Part shown: positions 22,329-30,719 of the stretch, piece after piece
Layout: each line of letters starts with the position of its first letter
Position numbering within the stretch: the stretch's first letter is position 1
NCBI GenBank assembly: GCA_003024175.1
Contig: MDYQ01000198.1
Location: forward strand, 1-51,948
Length of the DNA stretch: 51,948 bases
Source of the DNA: Planoprotostelium fungivorum
Lineage: Eukaryota; Evosea; Variosea; Cavosteliida; Cavosteliaceae
Direction of reading: 5' to 3'
The notes under the pieces: model-generated
Seen by the model: only the letters and a program-made list of their open reading frames with translations
What the model was told of the DNA's origin: nothing
Database searches by the model: none
Program-made: the position numbers and the translations under genes

Positions 22329-25300
22329 TTAAGCGTATGGATCGTATTCCATGATGGAGGATGGAAGCCTGGGACTGCCTCCCATGGCTAACCTTGGTGT
22401 CTTCATCCTCGGTGTCGTCTTCCCACTGGATAGGAGGGGACTGTCCGCCGTCTCATTCTCGTTGACATCGTAAGCCATGATCTGCTGTGCCTCTCCTCCG
22501 TACTCTTCACTCTCTCCTCCGTACTCTTGAGCCTCTTCCCTCCTCTCTCCTCCGTACTCTTCGGTCTTCTCTCCTTCTCCCTCCTCTCCACTCTCCTCTT
22601 CATCGGATAGAAACTCTTCGATGGATTCGGTCACGTTGTGGAATGTGGGACGATCCTTTGGCTGTGTCTGCCAGCACATCTGGAGGAGTTTGTTGACGTG
22701 GTCCGGTACTTTCTCTGTCACTTCTAATCTTCGTCCCAGACCCACAGATGTGACCACCTGTTCATGTCAGACATCGATTTGTGTGCCAGGGTGGTACCTC
22801 AGAGTTGGTCAAGGATTGATAGGGCACTTCGCCTGCGTGAATCATCTCCCTAGGATGACGTCAGTTGTAGATCGTGTGAATCATCTCACCATACGACTAC
22901 ACCGAATGCCCAGACGTCGCTCTTGGTGCTGTACTGATGGGATCTCAACACTTCTGGTGCCTGTAACGTGTTACTTGATGTGTCATCCGTCTGATACTCA
23001 CGCTCCATCGAACTGATTCCTTGTGAGGATTCTGCACCTTGGAGGGGGAGGACATCATTTCCCTCGCCATGCCAAAGTCACACAACTTGATTTGGTACGT
23101 TCCTTTGCGATCTGATTTGATCAAGATGTTGTCACACGTTAGGTCTCCGTGGACGATCCCATTCGAATCCAAGTAGGACATTGCAGATGCGATCTGTCCC
23201 GCCCTGCATCATGTCACGTAGAGTTACGAGATGTGAATGAAGAGAAGGCCATTCAATTGGCTCACATGGACCAGATGACGTGAATCTCAAATTTAGATTT
23301 ACGAAGTGCGTGCGAGAGAGTTCCTCCCGTGACCATCTCTGAGATCATGCACAGACATCCATCTACATCTTTGTAGACACCCATGTACTGTATGATCGAT
23401 GGATGATGGAGTCGCTGCCGTACAATGAGTCGAAGATAAAATCGAAGATGAAATCCACCTGCAGCAGAGAAGCTTCGTGCATTCCTCCCTTGTTGAATCT
23501 CTTCACGGCAACTTCCGCCGTACCGTTGATGAGAGCAGAGTAGACGGTACTGCCGGTACCCACGTGAACCTTCTCGATCAACACGACGTCATCTCTATTG
23601 AAAGAAGAAGCCGAGTTGTAGAACTCGAGCTCCACGTTCATCCTGCTCTTCCTCATCAAACTCCTCTTCCTCAAGGCAACGAAGACGAGAACCTACATCC
23701 ACATCAGCCATCACATCATTAAAAACGAGATATAGATCATCACCAGAGACAAGAGAACAAAAGCTGCAGCGCAGGCGGCTACGATGGGAATTGCAATGGA
23801 GCGGTTGCTCTGGGGGACGGAAGAAGCATCCTCTGCCTTTTTGGGAAATATTCCCACGGAAAAGTTGGTGAGGTGAGAGCACGAGCACAGGATGGAGTCT
23901 CCGTCTACAACGGTGTCGCAGTCTCGGACCCACAGGCTGTTCAGCCCGGACCAGTAGACGCATTCCACTGAAATTTCGTCGGAATTCCGAATCTTCGATG
24001 GGGTCTCACCTTGTGATTCGGATGGTACCGTTGTAGATAGAAGGGGCATGCGTAAGACGATCTTCTGAGATACACCCTGGACGCTCAATTCCTTTCCATC
24101 GAGATCTAACACCTGTTGGGTGTCAGATTTATCCGTCTACAACGATTCACCTCCAAGCCGTGGATATCTGATACGAGATTTGTGGCATTGCTGATTCAAA
24201 TCATCAATTTGTGATGAAAACGAATAGAACTCACCTGGTGACAAAGAGAGAGCCAAAGTGAGAGAGAGACATCTTCTGGAATACGACGTATCCACTCTCG
24301 ATGCTCATGTCAGTGAACACCTGCTGAGGGACAGAGGCTGATGATCCCTTCCCTGCGATCGACAGGGACACACTCTGACTGGTCACGTGACCGACAGATA
24401 ACGACAGATCGGATCCGGAGTATTGTAGATCGACTTGGCCGTTATCTCTCAAGGTGTTCACCACCAACTGGAATCCATCAATTCACAGATTCGAATAGTA
24501 CTCGAGTGCAACTCACTCGATTTAATGATTGGAAGATCTGTGGGGCAGGAGTCTCTGATAAAGACTCTACGATAATTCCGACCAACTGTGGAGGTACCAC
24601 ACGATCGGAGGACAGATACTGTCCGATCGATGTCTTACATCCGTTCAGGATCAACTGTCCCTGAGGTATGATCAGGAGAGTGAGGGAGAGGAATACATCA
24701 GGTGATGTCTCACCATGTAGAGAGGAGAAGAAGAAGAGTTGAGTAGGATGGAGCAATATCCATCGATGGTCAGAGCAACAGGTGGGATTACCGTGGTCGA
24801 ATGGATACCATCTACAACGATTGTCGTGTTCCCTTCGAGAGAGTTCCTCTGGATCTGACACAAGATCTGTTCTTGGTGAGAAGGAGATGAGATGGACACA
24901 CTCACTTGAGATTGATTGACGAGAATCGAAGTGTTCAGACACATCACATCTCCATCGAGTACTCTCAACAGACTGTTGTTGTCTCCAAAGTTGTAACCGA
25001 GTAAGAAGAGATAGTGGGTTCCATTCAGTGAGTAAGAGGACAGCTGGAGGATGTCAGATCGTCATGATATCGCAGTGAGATCGTCGTGACATCTCATCGA
25101 CTCACTTGGGTGATGGTGGGTGGCATGAAGGATACGGAAGAATTGGAAGAAACTCCGTCGACTGACAATTGTAGACCGTGACGACCTGTACCGGCGGGAA
25201 ATGCGAAATAAATGACAGTGTCATTCTCCAAGATCGTCCCATTGTAGACGATACCGTCTACTACGATGCGTAAAAGGTCGGAATTTCTACCGAAATTCTT

Positions 25301-28300
25301 TCCTCGTAAGATAACCTTTGAGTATTTTAGTCGTTGTAGATGAATGCACTTCATTACCTGTCCTCCAGTAGTATTGGGAGATGAGCTCGAAACGATCTCG
25401 GGCGCGTTGTAGTTGAGGGTGCCAGCTTGTGGATTCGTTTGATTATTCACGGTCAGGCTCACTTGGTGTCCCCTTCCTGTTCCAGGAACATGGATGCACG
25501 TTACGTTCAGTACGTAATCCGTAACGCTGATGGAAGTGAGAAAGGGAATCAAATGAGAAACACTCACCTTCCCGTGACATTTCCTACCGTACACACACGA
25601 CCATCGATCTTGACGACGTTGCTCGTTGTAGATGGAGAGCAACCCACACAAGACAAGACGATGGGTGTCGATCCATCGGTATCCATGGTGACCACCTTAT
25701 CGATGAGATAAGGAGGGAGGTAGTCGTAGCTGACACTGGTGGTCGATTGTAAACCAGCAGAGATCTCCAGCTGATGATTTCTTCCACTACCGGGCAGGAT
25801 CGACACCACCATCCATCGTGCATCTACAACGAGGATCTTGACAGATGTTCCATCGAAGGTGGCAGTGGTCTGTCTGCGCTCAGTCGATGTCGTTGAGATG
25901 TCTCTCACCTGAGAGGTCACGTGACCGAAATAACCGGATACGTTGAGGGAGATGGGAAGATCTTGGATCTGTAGGAGACCATCTACGTACATCTTGGGTT
26001 CGTAGAACATGGCCACGGAGACGTAACTGGAGGTGTAGGTGATGCATTGTACGCTGGATGCCCCGGAAGAAACGGTGATCACGTCATTCATCCAAATCTT
26101 CGCGTTCGTGTCCCATCGAACACATTTGACTGTTTGTCATCAGATGAGTATGATGATGATGATGATGATGATGATGACACCTGTGTAATCGATAGGAATC
26201 TGATCGTAGGAGACATCGAACAGAAAAGTGTACTCTGTGACATTGGATGCGCTCGACAATCCAGAATTCTTGATCTGGGCATTGTACACGTCTCCGACGA
26301 TGGTCCTGTATCAAGTCAATCTCCTCCATCTACAACCTGCCACTCACAGGTTCACACGATCGGTGAAGATGGAAGGAGCTATGTTCCTGCTGATCCTCTC
26401 GATCTGAATGTAACCCGATGTCAGATTACTTCTCAGAGCGTTGGGAACTGATAGGGTGAGGCTGTGGTTGTCGTACCAATCGTATGTCATCGCGGTGATA
26501 TCGATGGTGGTGGACAGATGCCAGGGAGTAGCATCAGATGAGGTGTAGTTGAACAAGTTCAATGCGGATACAGACATGTCAATGGCTCGAGCGTCTAACG
26601 AAGGGAGAGTCTGATCATCGGCAAAGATATCGTTCACCATCTGATCGGTCATCATCATCTGATCACTGGGGTGATCAGACCCACCTTGTTGACGGACACG
26701 AGAGGATCGTAGATGTTTCTAAATGTCACGATCTCCTCTAATAATGAATCTGCCAGGGAGAGAGGTACGGGAGTGACGTCATCACCGTTCAGATAGAAGA
26801 TCGTCAGATTTCCACAAGAATTCATCAGCGAGTATCCCTGATCAAATCAGACGCTGTGAACCATCTACAACTCACAAAGAGGTAGTCGGTATCGAATTGG
26901 TCCGTCAGCAGTAAGAGATTGCAAAATTGTGAATCTGAACTGAACTGAACTGGATATCTCAGATTATTCGAAGACTGTCCGGCCAGATAAAATTGAGCGA
27001 AGGAATTGTCTGTCACGTTGACTCCTCCATCTACCAGACACAACACCTGTTCGTCTCAATCTCGGTGTCTGATCGATGCGACTGCACCTGCGAATGCGAT
27101 TGGATCAGGCTGATGTTTCTGCAGGTGACGTTCTGGATGTCAACTGACATATCTGACATGACTGTTCCCATATTGTCTCCGTTCAACAATACGATCTGTC
27201 CCATGGGGTTATCGTGGCTGTACAGCTGTATATGGTTAATGAAATGAATGAAGTCAAATGAAATGGATTGAAATGTACCGATAAGATGGTGGGAGGTAAG
27301 AAGTACATGTAAGAGGCTTGAGGAGTACCGTTGACTACCACGTTGATGACGTTGATGCCTGATCCTGCGCCGACATCGAAGTAGAGAGATGTGTCGTTCT
27401 TGTATACAACGACATTATGGTAGACGTTGGGGTCACGTGACAGACCGATCGAAATATCGGAGCCCTTCCTTCCAAAGTTATTTCCGGTGATGTCCACCTG
27501 CGCTCGTTAGCCCGTTGTAGATGGACGAACGTCACTCACTCTACCTCCCCGAGTTGAGGGCCTTGATATGGTGCTCAGTATGGGTGGATTGTACGAAAAT
27601 ATTCCGGCGTTGTAGTTGGTCTGATTTCCCGCCGTGATGCTGATGATTCTACCTCCACCCGTACCCGGTACGTACTTGCATTGTGTCGTGTGAATGTATT
27701 GACTCCTTCGAGAAGGTCAGGGTGAGTCACTCATGATCCATCTCACCCCTCTTGTACGTAAGATGTGATGACACAGGGGATGCCTCCGATGGTGATGGAC
27801 ACATTGTTCGAATAAGGTCCACACAGGGCACAGTGGAGTAACACTGTGGCCACAGCATCCGTGTTACACGGTGTGGTGGCAGAGGAGAAGTAAGGGAGGG
27901 GGTAAGAGAAATTGTACACCATGTAACTCTGAAGGCGCTCAGTCGATGGCGTGGAGAGTTACGCACCCCATACAGAGTGGAGATGGTGATCACGTGACCG
28001 TATCCGATTCCCGCGGGAATGTTGAGCGTAACGTACGTCGGGGACGTCTGAGCGAAACTCGCCTTGACTCCATCGATAGTTACATTGCTCTGTAGATCGT
28101 CAGCACCCTCTTCAAATCACCATGGTTACCGAAGCAGGGTCGACGACAGCAAAGAGACCCGTCAGATTGACCACTGTGGGTATCTTACTGACGATCGTGT
28201 ACGTACGTAAGACGTACACGCTGCTGACGTTGGTGTGGAAGGGAGTCCACATGGAAGTCAAATTCGAATTCGTCGCCCCGACGAGCAGCTGATTTTACGT

Positions 28301-29242
28301 CAAAGAATGAGACGAGATGATCTACACTCACAGATTTAGAGGCGATGGGACCATTGATGAAGCAATAGAGAGAGCTGGTGTTCGAATTAAAGGTAGAGCC
28401 TACACATTCTCTTCCGTTCAACGTGATCACTCCACCAGCCAGGTTGTCTCCGTACACAGTGATGGCTCCTGTCGACGGTGAATATTCTGTGAAGAGTTGA
28501 AGGACATCACCTCCGGCAAAGGTGAACTGAGCGTCGATGGAAGTGATGTAGGGAGAGATGAATAAATCACAATTGACGACAAAGTTGAATATCGGGCCAC
28601 ACTTGCCTTGCTGCTGTGACCACCCTGCATTCGTGTCAACTTTCATCATGAAATGGATTGAAATCTATTCATCTCATGTCCTCGGGCTCACCGAGATAGA
28701 TGAACTGTGGATCCATGATGGAGATGGAGCTGTTGCACTGATATACGATGAAAGCCGTGTCAGGCGAAGAACACTTGGAAGAGTCGGTATTAATGAGGGG
28801 AGAAGAACCTGTAGAGGGTGAGAGGTCTCGCGGTGGCTCCGCACCATTGCTTTGGATGAGAGTGGGAACGAGACCTTTATATGATGTTTGAGGAAGAATA
28901 AATAAAATCGTACCAGTGCTGAGTATCAAAAAAGGACTCGAGTACCCTTTCACGACTCTGTGACCTGTGTCAATCGACTGTTGAAGGAGATTTACGCACC
29001 CGCATGGATTATAGTAGTATCGGCTGTTGTTAGAATCAGATGCATTCCATACTGAACTGTCGCAGCTCAGTCGTGTATCTACAGATACTCGATACTCACT
29101 TGTAGGGTCCTCGATTCGTGAGATAATCGGTGTGCAAGATCGGTCCGTCCGGTTGATTCAACTCACACGAAGGTATAGATGCAGAGGTTAGTACAATAAA
29201 ATAGATACAAAGAAAGAGAGCTGACGTTGGGGTGCGCATCAT
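22329..29242 (-). CDS. TIG-repeat receptor kinase with GPS autoproteolysis motif
   Basis: The N-terminal signal peptide reads MRTPTSALFLCIYFIVLTSA. The long ectodomain (about 29150-24150) contains several IPT/TIG-like repeats, recognisable from G-x-NFG turns and PPTI boundaries: ITGNNFGRKGSDISIG, VILRGKNFGRNSDLLRIVVD, TVYGDNLAGGVITLNGREC, FLPPTIL, FMPPTITQ. Before the membrane is a GPS motif: CVYWSGLNSLWVRDC, then CSCSHLTNFSVG with the HL/T cleavage triplet. One helix (SIAIPIVAACAAAFVLLSLV) and a basic stop-transfer (RKRSLMRKSR) follow. The kinase is tyrosine-kinase-like: VGTGSTVYSA, AVKRF, HGDLTCDNIL, CDFGMARE, SDVWAFGVVVWEM, CWQTQPKDRPTF. HRD is changed to HGD. The tail has acidic EYGGE repeats and a Pro/Ser/Thr-rich end, MEYDPYA. 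About 30 exons are present. It is probably a self-cleaving adhesion or allorecognition receptor; the ligand is unknown. Confidence 0.85.
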
Positions 29243-29529: not shown

Positions 29530-30719
29530 CTACTTGGGAGAGCCTGGTGCTGTGTTCTGCTTCTGTTGCTGAAGCCACAACTGTCCTGCGATCTTGTCGA
29601 ATATTGGAGTAATACCTTCCCCGGTCTTTGCGCTGCACTCCGCAAACAAGCAGTCGTTCTGTTGCGCAAACTGTCGCACCTGCATCATCTCAGATCATCA
29701 TCATCGACGCAGCATCCACCTCATCTGTGTCCACTGCACGTCGATCGCTGAGATCCAACTTGCATCCAACCAGGTAGATGATGGCTTTCTGTTCGCATCA
29801 TCAGAACATCACATGATGCTGTGTCACTGTATTTCGTTTTCTATACATGAAAGAGGTTCACCGTTCCATTGGATCTCAATTCTGTGATCCACGTCTTGGC
29901 TCTCTCGTATGTGTACTGTGCGAATGGTTCATTGAAAATAAATCAGAATGAATTCACATATTGTGTAATGTCGTAGACGATGAGAGCAGCGAAACTTCCA
30001 CGGTAGTACATCGGGGCTAATGAGTGGAATCCTAATTCTCGTCAGCACGCGACAGACGAACAACATCAGATGACTCACTCTCTTGACCTGTAGAGAAATA
30101 TTTAGCTCATTGGTGTTGTTCACATGCAGCGGATTAGTTCTGTTTATGGATGATGACATCACCTGCTGTGGGGGTGTTAGAATACTAAAGACGTAGAGAA
30201 AACCTCACCTGTATCCCAAATCTCAAACTTGGTTGTGCGTTCGTTGGAAATGTGACTCTTCGTTGCGAATGCGGCTCTGTATGATTCAGTTGAATGATTC
30301 GTCAGTCGGCTCCTCACCCGATGGTTGGTGCCTCTCCATCGAAGAATTCCTGAGAAGAGTCACGAAGAGGAATGAAAAGCAACATCATATCACCCCTCTA
30401 ATATAACGGTTAAGGATGGAAGACTTTCCTGTCGAATAGATCAATCTCCAGGCTCTCACGGACGGTGAAGAACTTACCTACAGCGGCCTCACCCAACATA
30501 CATAATTTCACACCCTTGGACGGATCGACAACCGATCGAGAAGATGCAATTCCTTGGACTAATTCACATATTCAGAAGAGTTTTAGAGGTTCGATATGAG
30601 CAGAATCGAATATGGATATCTTCATGGCGACGTAGAAATGGATTACCCGAAACAGTTTCTCTCTTTCCTCTCTTAGAACTACTTCCTCCACAACATGATT
30701 TGCTCTCTCCTTCCGACAT
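29530..30719 (-). CDS. Rab5/ARA6-like small GTPase with N-terminal cysteines
   Basis: The exon-joined product starts MSEGESKSCCGGSSSKRGKR. G1 is LGEAAVGKSS; switch I is GEAPTIGAAF, the Rab5-type effector loop; switch II is WDTGQERFHSLAPMYYRG; G4 is GCKLDL, with Cys for the usual Asn; and G5 is ECSAKTGEG. It ends QKQNTAPGSPK with no C-terminal cysteine for prenylation. The N-terminal extension of about 37 residues carries a Cys-Cys pair. Plant ARA6 (RABF1) is the known Rab5 relative that lacks the C-terminal lipid site and uses its N-terminus for membrane binding, so this gene is either ARA6-like or convergent. It lacks the MGC start of ARA6, so myristoylation is not predicted; palmitoylation of the CC pair is inference. 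A 9-nt microexon at 30079-30087 supplies the switch II Gln-Glu. The likely site of action is early endosomes. Confidence 0.88.
30079..30087 (-). other. Nine-nucleotide microexon (GTCAAGAGA) in the Rab gene
   Basis: Read on the minus strand, the upstream exon ends GATACAG and the downstream exon begins GATTCCACTC. Only insertion of GTCAAGAGA between them gives the invariant Rab sequence DTGQERFHS. The microexon is flanked by CTACAG acceptor and GTGAGTC donor sequences. Confidence 0.85.

Follow-up and report, generated by a model that had tools for sequence, protein, structure and literature searches.

Work on GAIN domains has so far treated them as the front part of seven-helix receptors and of polycystins, in which it is hard to separate cutting from cap release and from tethered agonism. 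In polycystin-1-like proteins, the GPS motif and GAIN domain precede the membrane part of a non-classical receptor with 11 helices. PMC12716839 places the first combination of a GAIN domain with the seven-helix (7TM) domain of adhesion G protein-coupled receptors (GPCRs) in holozoans, with both encoded in other genes elsewhere, notes that GAIN domains were already known in some non-animal proteins (Arac et al. 2012, cited therein), gives TxFAVLM as the tethered-agonist consensus, and describes seven-helix GPCR-kinase fusions in choanoflagellates, oomycetes and amoebozoans. PMC13197933 deals with the GAIN domain and tethered agonist of polycystins, and PMC13091385 reports leucine-rich repeat (LRR) receptor-like kinases from Amoebozoa too, in a basal ‘others’ group. 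Here, we describe a gene of the amoebozoan Planoprotostelium fungivorum (class Variosea) at 22329..29242, minus strand, of the window, the whole analyzed stretch of 51,948 nucleotides that constitutes contig C145 of a 36.9 Mb assembly of 471 contigs. Judged from gene models and a predicted fold, the GAIN domain, known from seven-helix and polycystin receptors, is in this organism found on single-pass receptor kinases. The species is named Protostelium aurantium var. fungivorum in PMC10445921, and P. aurantium is a fungivorous amoeba according to the abstract of a paper.

The interval constitutes a single gene, with an ATG at 29242 and a stop ending at 22329. Its revised spliced model comprises 33 exons in one open frame of 1830 amino acids, and all of its introns (32/32, 38–62 nucleotides each) are GT-AG. 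Introns were taken out by eye from three-frame translations, with two more added after comparison with the public model; the revised model is favored over the first version (31 exons, 1858 amino acids) because, with these two introns added, TIG scores 82.9 bits instead of 73.3. The public model P0001 (2035 amino acids), made by others, is 96% identical across the GAIN-to-kinase region and has a single transcript model running from ectodomain and GPS through the helix to the kinase, in the same order as the revised model. P0001 is a merger of the complete upstream Rab gene with the receptor, passing over the Rab gene's own stop at 29530, and it is annotated ‘Rab GTPase’ because it begins in that gene; the GPS is missing from its listed domains. 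In both gene models, the order GAIN/GPS, helix, kinase is that of one gene.

Taken alone, the Pfam score of the GPS motif barely exceeds the cut-off (Table 1). The motif is nevertheless more than chance, because the GAIN domain of a sister gene, used as a query, matches the same exon (E 7.6e-12) and because the modelled fold is GAIN-like; a chance GPS-like motif is ruled out by this fold and this homology. The GPS lies inside the predicted GAIN-like fold, as judged by the AlphaFold model, by Foldseek and VIA, and by a profile match to adhesion GPCRs, and HL|T sits between the last two strands of the model. The GAIN domain is predicted to self-cut at this bond. Upstream, Pfam TIG matches the revised protein at 1.6e-23 in three stretches at E up to 0.01, and matched the first model version in five stretches at E up to 1; no LRR match and no PLAT match are among the Pfam results for this protein.

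In the first model version, hydropathy gives hydrophobic windows at the N terminus and at one helix, and nothing else; an adhesion GPCR with unseen helices was rejected on this basis. A search with 7tm_2 gave no match anywhere, its controls included, and so carries no weight. The kinase begins 29 residues beyond the helix and matches Pfam PK_Tyr_Ser-Thr over residues 1491–1733 of the revised protein (9.8e-62). Its catalytic residues are intact: Lys1516 in AVK, Asp1600 in HGDL (HGDLTCDN) and Asp1622 in DFG, with APE kept and with the Arg of HRD replaced by Gly. The solved structures closest to it by sequence are mostly tyrosine kinases, which does not decide between tyrosine and serine/threonine specificity. 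The initial annotation had read a signal peptide, TIG-like repeats, a GPS, one helix and a kinase from the DNA, and all of these are present in the spliced model, Pfam matches and hydropathy; its placing of the GPS within a GAIN domain agrees with the predicted fold, and its joining of GPS, helix and kinase in one gene with two gene models, separate genes not being seen. The annotation further suggested that the receptor may be cleaved and shed, may sense force and may serve allorecognition or prey sensing.

Table 1. Positions of the receptor gene and its parts in the window
Feature	Coordinates	Strand	Basis
Whole coding region: signal peptide, TIG repeats, GAIN/GPS, one helix, kinase, acidic tail	22329..29242	-	Spliced model; order agrees with P0001
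Hydrophobic stretch at the N terminus (residues 1-22), likely a signal peptide	29177..29242	-	Hydropathy
TIG-repeat region, ~residues 143-1204	24714..28639	-	Pfam TIG
GAIN domain, ~residues 1225-1415	23855..24600	-	Profile match to adhesion GPCRs; AlphaFold model; Foldseek and VIA; sister GAIN query
GPS motif, residues 1379-1415, Cys-Trp-Trp-Cys...Cys-x-Cys-x-HL|T	23855..23967	-	Pfam GPS 23.2 bits, cut-off 22.5
Predicted cutting site H1409-L1410|T1411	23867..23875	-	Spliced model; AlphaFold model
Stalk after predicted cut, residues 1411-1434, TNFSVGIFPKK...	23798..23869	-	Spliced model
Single membrane helix, residues 1435-1459, intron 23693-23743 inside	23672..23797	-	Hydropathy; spliced model
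Kinase domain, residues 1488-1737	22611..23587	-	Pfam 9.8e-62; residue positions
C-terminal tail, residues 1738-1830, acidic and with tyrosines, plus stop	22329..22610	-	Spliced model

Near the N terminus, residues ~26–165 (~28570–29168, minus strand) form a cysteine-containing stretch, YYYNPCG...CSSPDTAFIVYQC, that matches nothing in Pfam at E up to 1. The revised model and P0001 disagree on its exon borders, and it is the least certain part of the gene.

The genome of P. fungivorum holds at least 150 GPS places (150 scored of 176 candidates, with the window's own GPS absent among those listed); the near-identical pairs C120/C5 and C185/C187 may be assembly duplicates, which leaves gene numbers uncertain. 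The DNA was read around 41 of the 150 places, a non-random set composed of the best 20 GPS matches, a batch from the end of the contig list, and neighbors falling inside. A kinase hidden Markov model built here matches within 1.4 kb downstream on the same strand at 39 of these 41 places, the exceptions being C1:314081 and C99:259892, compared with 0/41 downstream on the opposite strand, 0/41 upstream on the same strand and 0/41 upstream on the opposite strand. For the remaining 109 places, judged by positions among the matches listed, at least 59 are followed on the same strand by a kinase no more than 1.6 kb away, one is followed by a kinase on the opposite strand and none has one upstream; the other 50 lack a kinase among the matches listed, an absence that means little because the method recovers only 15 of the 41 read places. 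In all, a kinase lies downstream at at least 98 of the 150 GPS places. In the reverse test, 26 of 28 kinase clusters found with one sister kinase query, and 17 of 18 found with a second, lie downstream of a GPS/GAIN place (C186, C286 and C204 being without GPS), the place set consisting of the 150 GPS places and five GAIN places from the sister GAIN query.

The window receptor is a divergent member of this large family. Its own GAIN domain, as a protein-search query, matched only its own record, and in a kinase tree (11 of the 16 public sister proteins, 18 of 90 other domains) it joins the LRR-GAIN pseudokinases at 86/73 only. The initial annotation had regarded it as a receptor without a described counterpart in domain order; the GAIN-like fold, the single gene and the undescribed order are supported, and the receptor is one of a family rather than alone. 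A literature search found no described family with the order GPS, helix, kinase, no description of a GAIN domain or GPS on receptor kinases, and none of a GAIN domain with a pseudokinase, the genome paper of the species, reportedly by Hillmann et al. in 2018, lying outside its reach.

The family also bears on whether the ectodomain with its GPS and the kinase are two adjacent genes wrongly joined. Public models here do merge neighbors, as P0001 does with the Rab gene and as P0118, P0124 and P0125 do in carrying unrelated domains. At the window locus, however, frame and splice sites run on from the GPS through the helix into the kinase, and the kinases following the read GPS places are always on the same strand. 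At the sister locus C466:45524-46003, similarity spans the GPS, the helix and the start of the kinase (query 10–157) in one open frame with no stop. A false join was rejected as highly improbable.

Ectodomains vary within the family. An LRR_8 scan, in which the best 150 of 1179 candidates were scored, puts LRR places no more than 4 kb upstream at 38 of the 150 GPS places and downstream at 10; on the opposite strand, none lies upstream at this distance. TIG repeats lie upstream of three GPS places (C142, C124 and C362), none of which has a kinase among the matches listed. On C124 (55586–61676) and C362 (103039–109110), both on the plus strand, TIG arrays occupy open frames of ~1400 amino acids, with the GPS 1.5 kb past the last listed TIG; both may encode TIG-GPS proteins that end differently. 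Contig C98 (~16480–43771, minus strand) contains very long TIG-packed open frames, one of 5674 amino acids. GPS places stand in tandem arrays on C196, C335, C1, C351 and C58, with at least 12 on C351, which suggests recent local duplication.

Public sister proteins give a closer view of the cutting site and the kinase. A first protein search (best 7985 candidates by shared words scored) returned 109 matches, mostly unrelated kinases. With the GAIN domain of one sister, taken from an ab initio gene model, as the query, 16 proteins matched at E up to 1, every one of them a P. fungivorum protein. No other species matched at this level; because the search relies on shared five-residue words, this does not establish a restriction to P. 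fungivorum. All 16 sisters have a GPS and a kinase, and 15 have LRRs. The model of P0114 (pLDDT 74.9, pTM 0.44) places HL|T between two strands (529–534 and 540–546), within a structure composed of an LRR part, GAIN helices and strands, one long helix (567–601) and a kinase-like part. Alignment A2 contains 12 of the 16 sisters, P0110, P0118, P0122 and P0123 having been dropped as models seemingly missing part of GAIN, and alignment A4 contains 15, with P0118 dropped.

The sister kinases have decayed at their catalytic positions. The HxD Asp is present in none of the 14 readable sisters (the stretch is missing from the P0118 and P0119 models) and the DFG Asp in none of 16, and the Lys is kept in 15 of 16 and the APE Glu in all 16. 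Ab initio models of sister genes often lose frame in the kinase and served only to provide one search query. The same residues were also read at the DNA level, independently of gene models: the HxD Asp is found at two of 17 readable loci among the 41, both with an odd RDIDL (C1:310224 and C196:42487), the DFG Asp at one of six readable loci, and the Lys at four of four. Among those readable, the sister kinase domains look mostly like pseudokinases. HLTNF, in comparison, is invariant in all 16 sisters, and HL[T/S] is found at all 41 read loci, a count to be taken with the preference of the search model itself for intact GPS motifs. Retention of HL|T where catalysis is lost suggests, with that same preference in mind, that the cut is under selection, and the combination of decayed catalytic motifs with an invariant cutting site suggests that in these sisters the cut matters more than phosphate transfer.

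We consider it fairly probable that the window protein works as a single-pass receptor kinase activated by loss of a pre-cut cap. The GAIN domain would cut itself at HL|T during export, and the TIG-bearing cap would stay bound to the last strand through non-covalent contacts only. Prey, another cell or a surface could then hold the cap, and a pull would probably take it off. Loss of the cap would free the short stalk and helix, allowing membrane fragments to pair and the paired kinases to fire through trans-phosphorylation. Sisters with dead kinases would use the same sensing mechanism and would pass the signal on through a live-kinase partner that they recruit.

Two features could weigh against cutting. 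The fourth GPS cysteine is lost in eight of 16 sisters (P0116–P0123, CxC becoming CQT or CQS); the second is also lost in four of those eight and is never lost alone, a pattern that fits a disulfide whose partner decays later. In addition, 17 of 17 proteins and 25 of 41 loci have an N-F-S/T sequon after the bond, which, if glycosylated, might hinder cutting. Both could weaken the reaction and are in keeping with an alternative in which GAIN folds without cutting, or the cut is irrelevant, and the domain acts as a rigid membrane-near spacer and adhesion module while ligand dimerizes the receptor in the manner of conventional receptor kinases. Not every GAIN domain of adhesion GPCRs is cut, and the BAI2 structure matched in the fold comparison is described as an uncleaved state. 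Conservation of the site argues the other way, both in the sisters with decayed kinases and, within the bias of the search, across the read loci; we regard such a non-cutting module as rather unlikely.

Alternatively, the cut occurs and the freed stalk serves as a tethered agonist on a partner, such as a seven-helix receptor or co-receptor, and not via the kinase's own pairing. The buried strand, TNFS/T-[VIL], is conserved as in adhesion GPCRs, and pseudokinase sisters need some other output. Beyond this strand, however, residues depart from TxFAVLM, with G at +6 in 16 of 17 and a variable +7, and no partner is known; we judge a partner-directed agonist improbable. Two points favor cap removal over a tethered agonist of the GPCR kind: the protein has no seven-helix pocket, and the agonist residues past the buried strand are not kept.

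More tentatively, and with doubt prevailing, the family may represent a receptor class, with ~150 single-pass receptors or more that bear a GAIN cap, LRRs and a dead kinase being found in many of them. These would be pre-cut sensors released by force, and they would signal by teaming up with a few live-kinase members, the window TIG receptor among them. If so, a single-celled predator would possess an innate recognition network that combines the build of plant LRR receptors with the cutting module of animal adhesion GPCRs, and neither seven helices nor a tethered agonist would be needed for GAIN release to signal. A natural family with a cutting site, one helix and a kinase makes it testable whether cap release alone signals. 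It also amounts to a large expansion of receptors within a unicellular predator, mixing plant-like LRRs, TIG repeats and an animal-type cutting module, and it is partly hidden behind the public names ‘Rab GTPase’ and ‘ring finger protein’.

Over the two strands of the whole window together, the word GTTGTAGA was counted 39 times, in exons and introns and frequently as GTTGTAGATGG or its complement; 30 first-order Markov simulations averaged 1.5 and never exceeded 4.

Comparison with described receptors shows which parts are shared. Adhesion GPCRs (latrophilin, CD97, BAI, ADGRG and ADGRF groups) have in common with the window receptor a GAIN-like fold, a GPS with HL|T before the membrane and a large adhesive ectodomain. 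The main differences are that seven helices follow the GPS in adhesion GPCRs, whereas one helix and a kinase follow here, and that TxFAVLM is not kept, the window reading TNFSVGI. Polycystin-1-like proteins likewise carry a GPS/GAIN ahead of the membrane, but their multi-helix membrane part and PLAT are not in the window receptor, which has one helix and no PLAT among its Pfam matches; polycystin identity was rejected, as inspection by eye placed none of the seven polycystin channel places in the genome close to a listed GPS. GPCR-kinase fusions resemble it as membrane receptors with a C-terminal kinase; in the available part of PMC12716839, however, they have seven helices and no GAIN is described, in contrast to the one helix and GAIN here. 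Plant-type LRR receptor kinases share LRRs, one helix and a kinase fold with 15 of the 16 sisters, whereas the window receptor has TIG repeats, not LRRs. Several plant receptors have non-catalytic kinases, as do many kinases of the GPS-kinase family. GPS/GAIN is found in 16 of 16 sisters, and none is mentioned for the LRR receptor-like kinases in the available text of PMC13091385. In gene models, the overall layout of the window receptor, with a signal peptide, an ectodomain, one helix and a cytoplasmic kinase, is that of receptor tyrosine kinases and tyrosine-kinase-like receptors. It differs from receptor tyrosine kinases in the GAIN/GPS between ectodomain and helix and in the catalytic loop. 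The tyrosine-kinase catalytic loop HRDLAARN is replaced here by HGDLTCDN.
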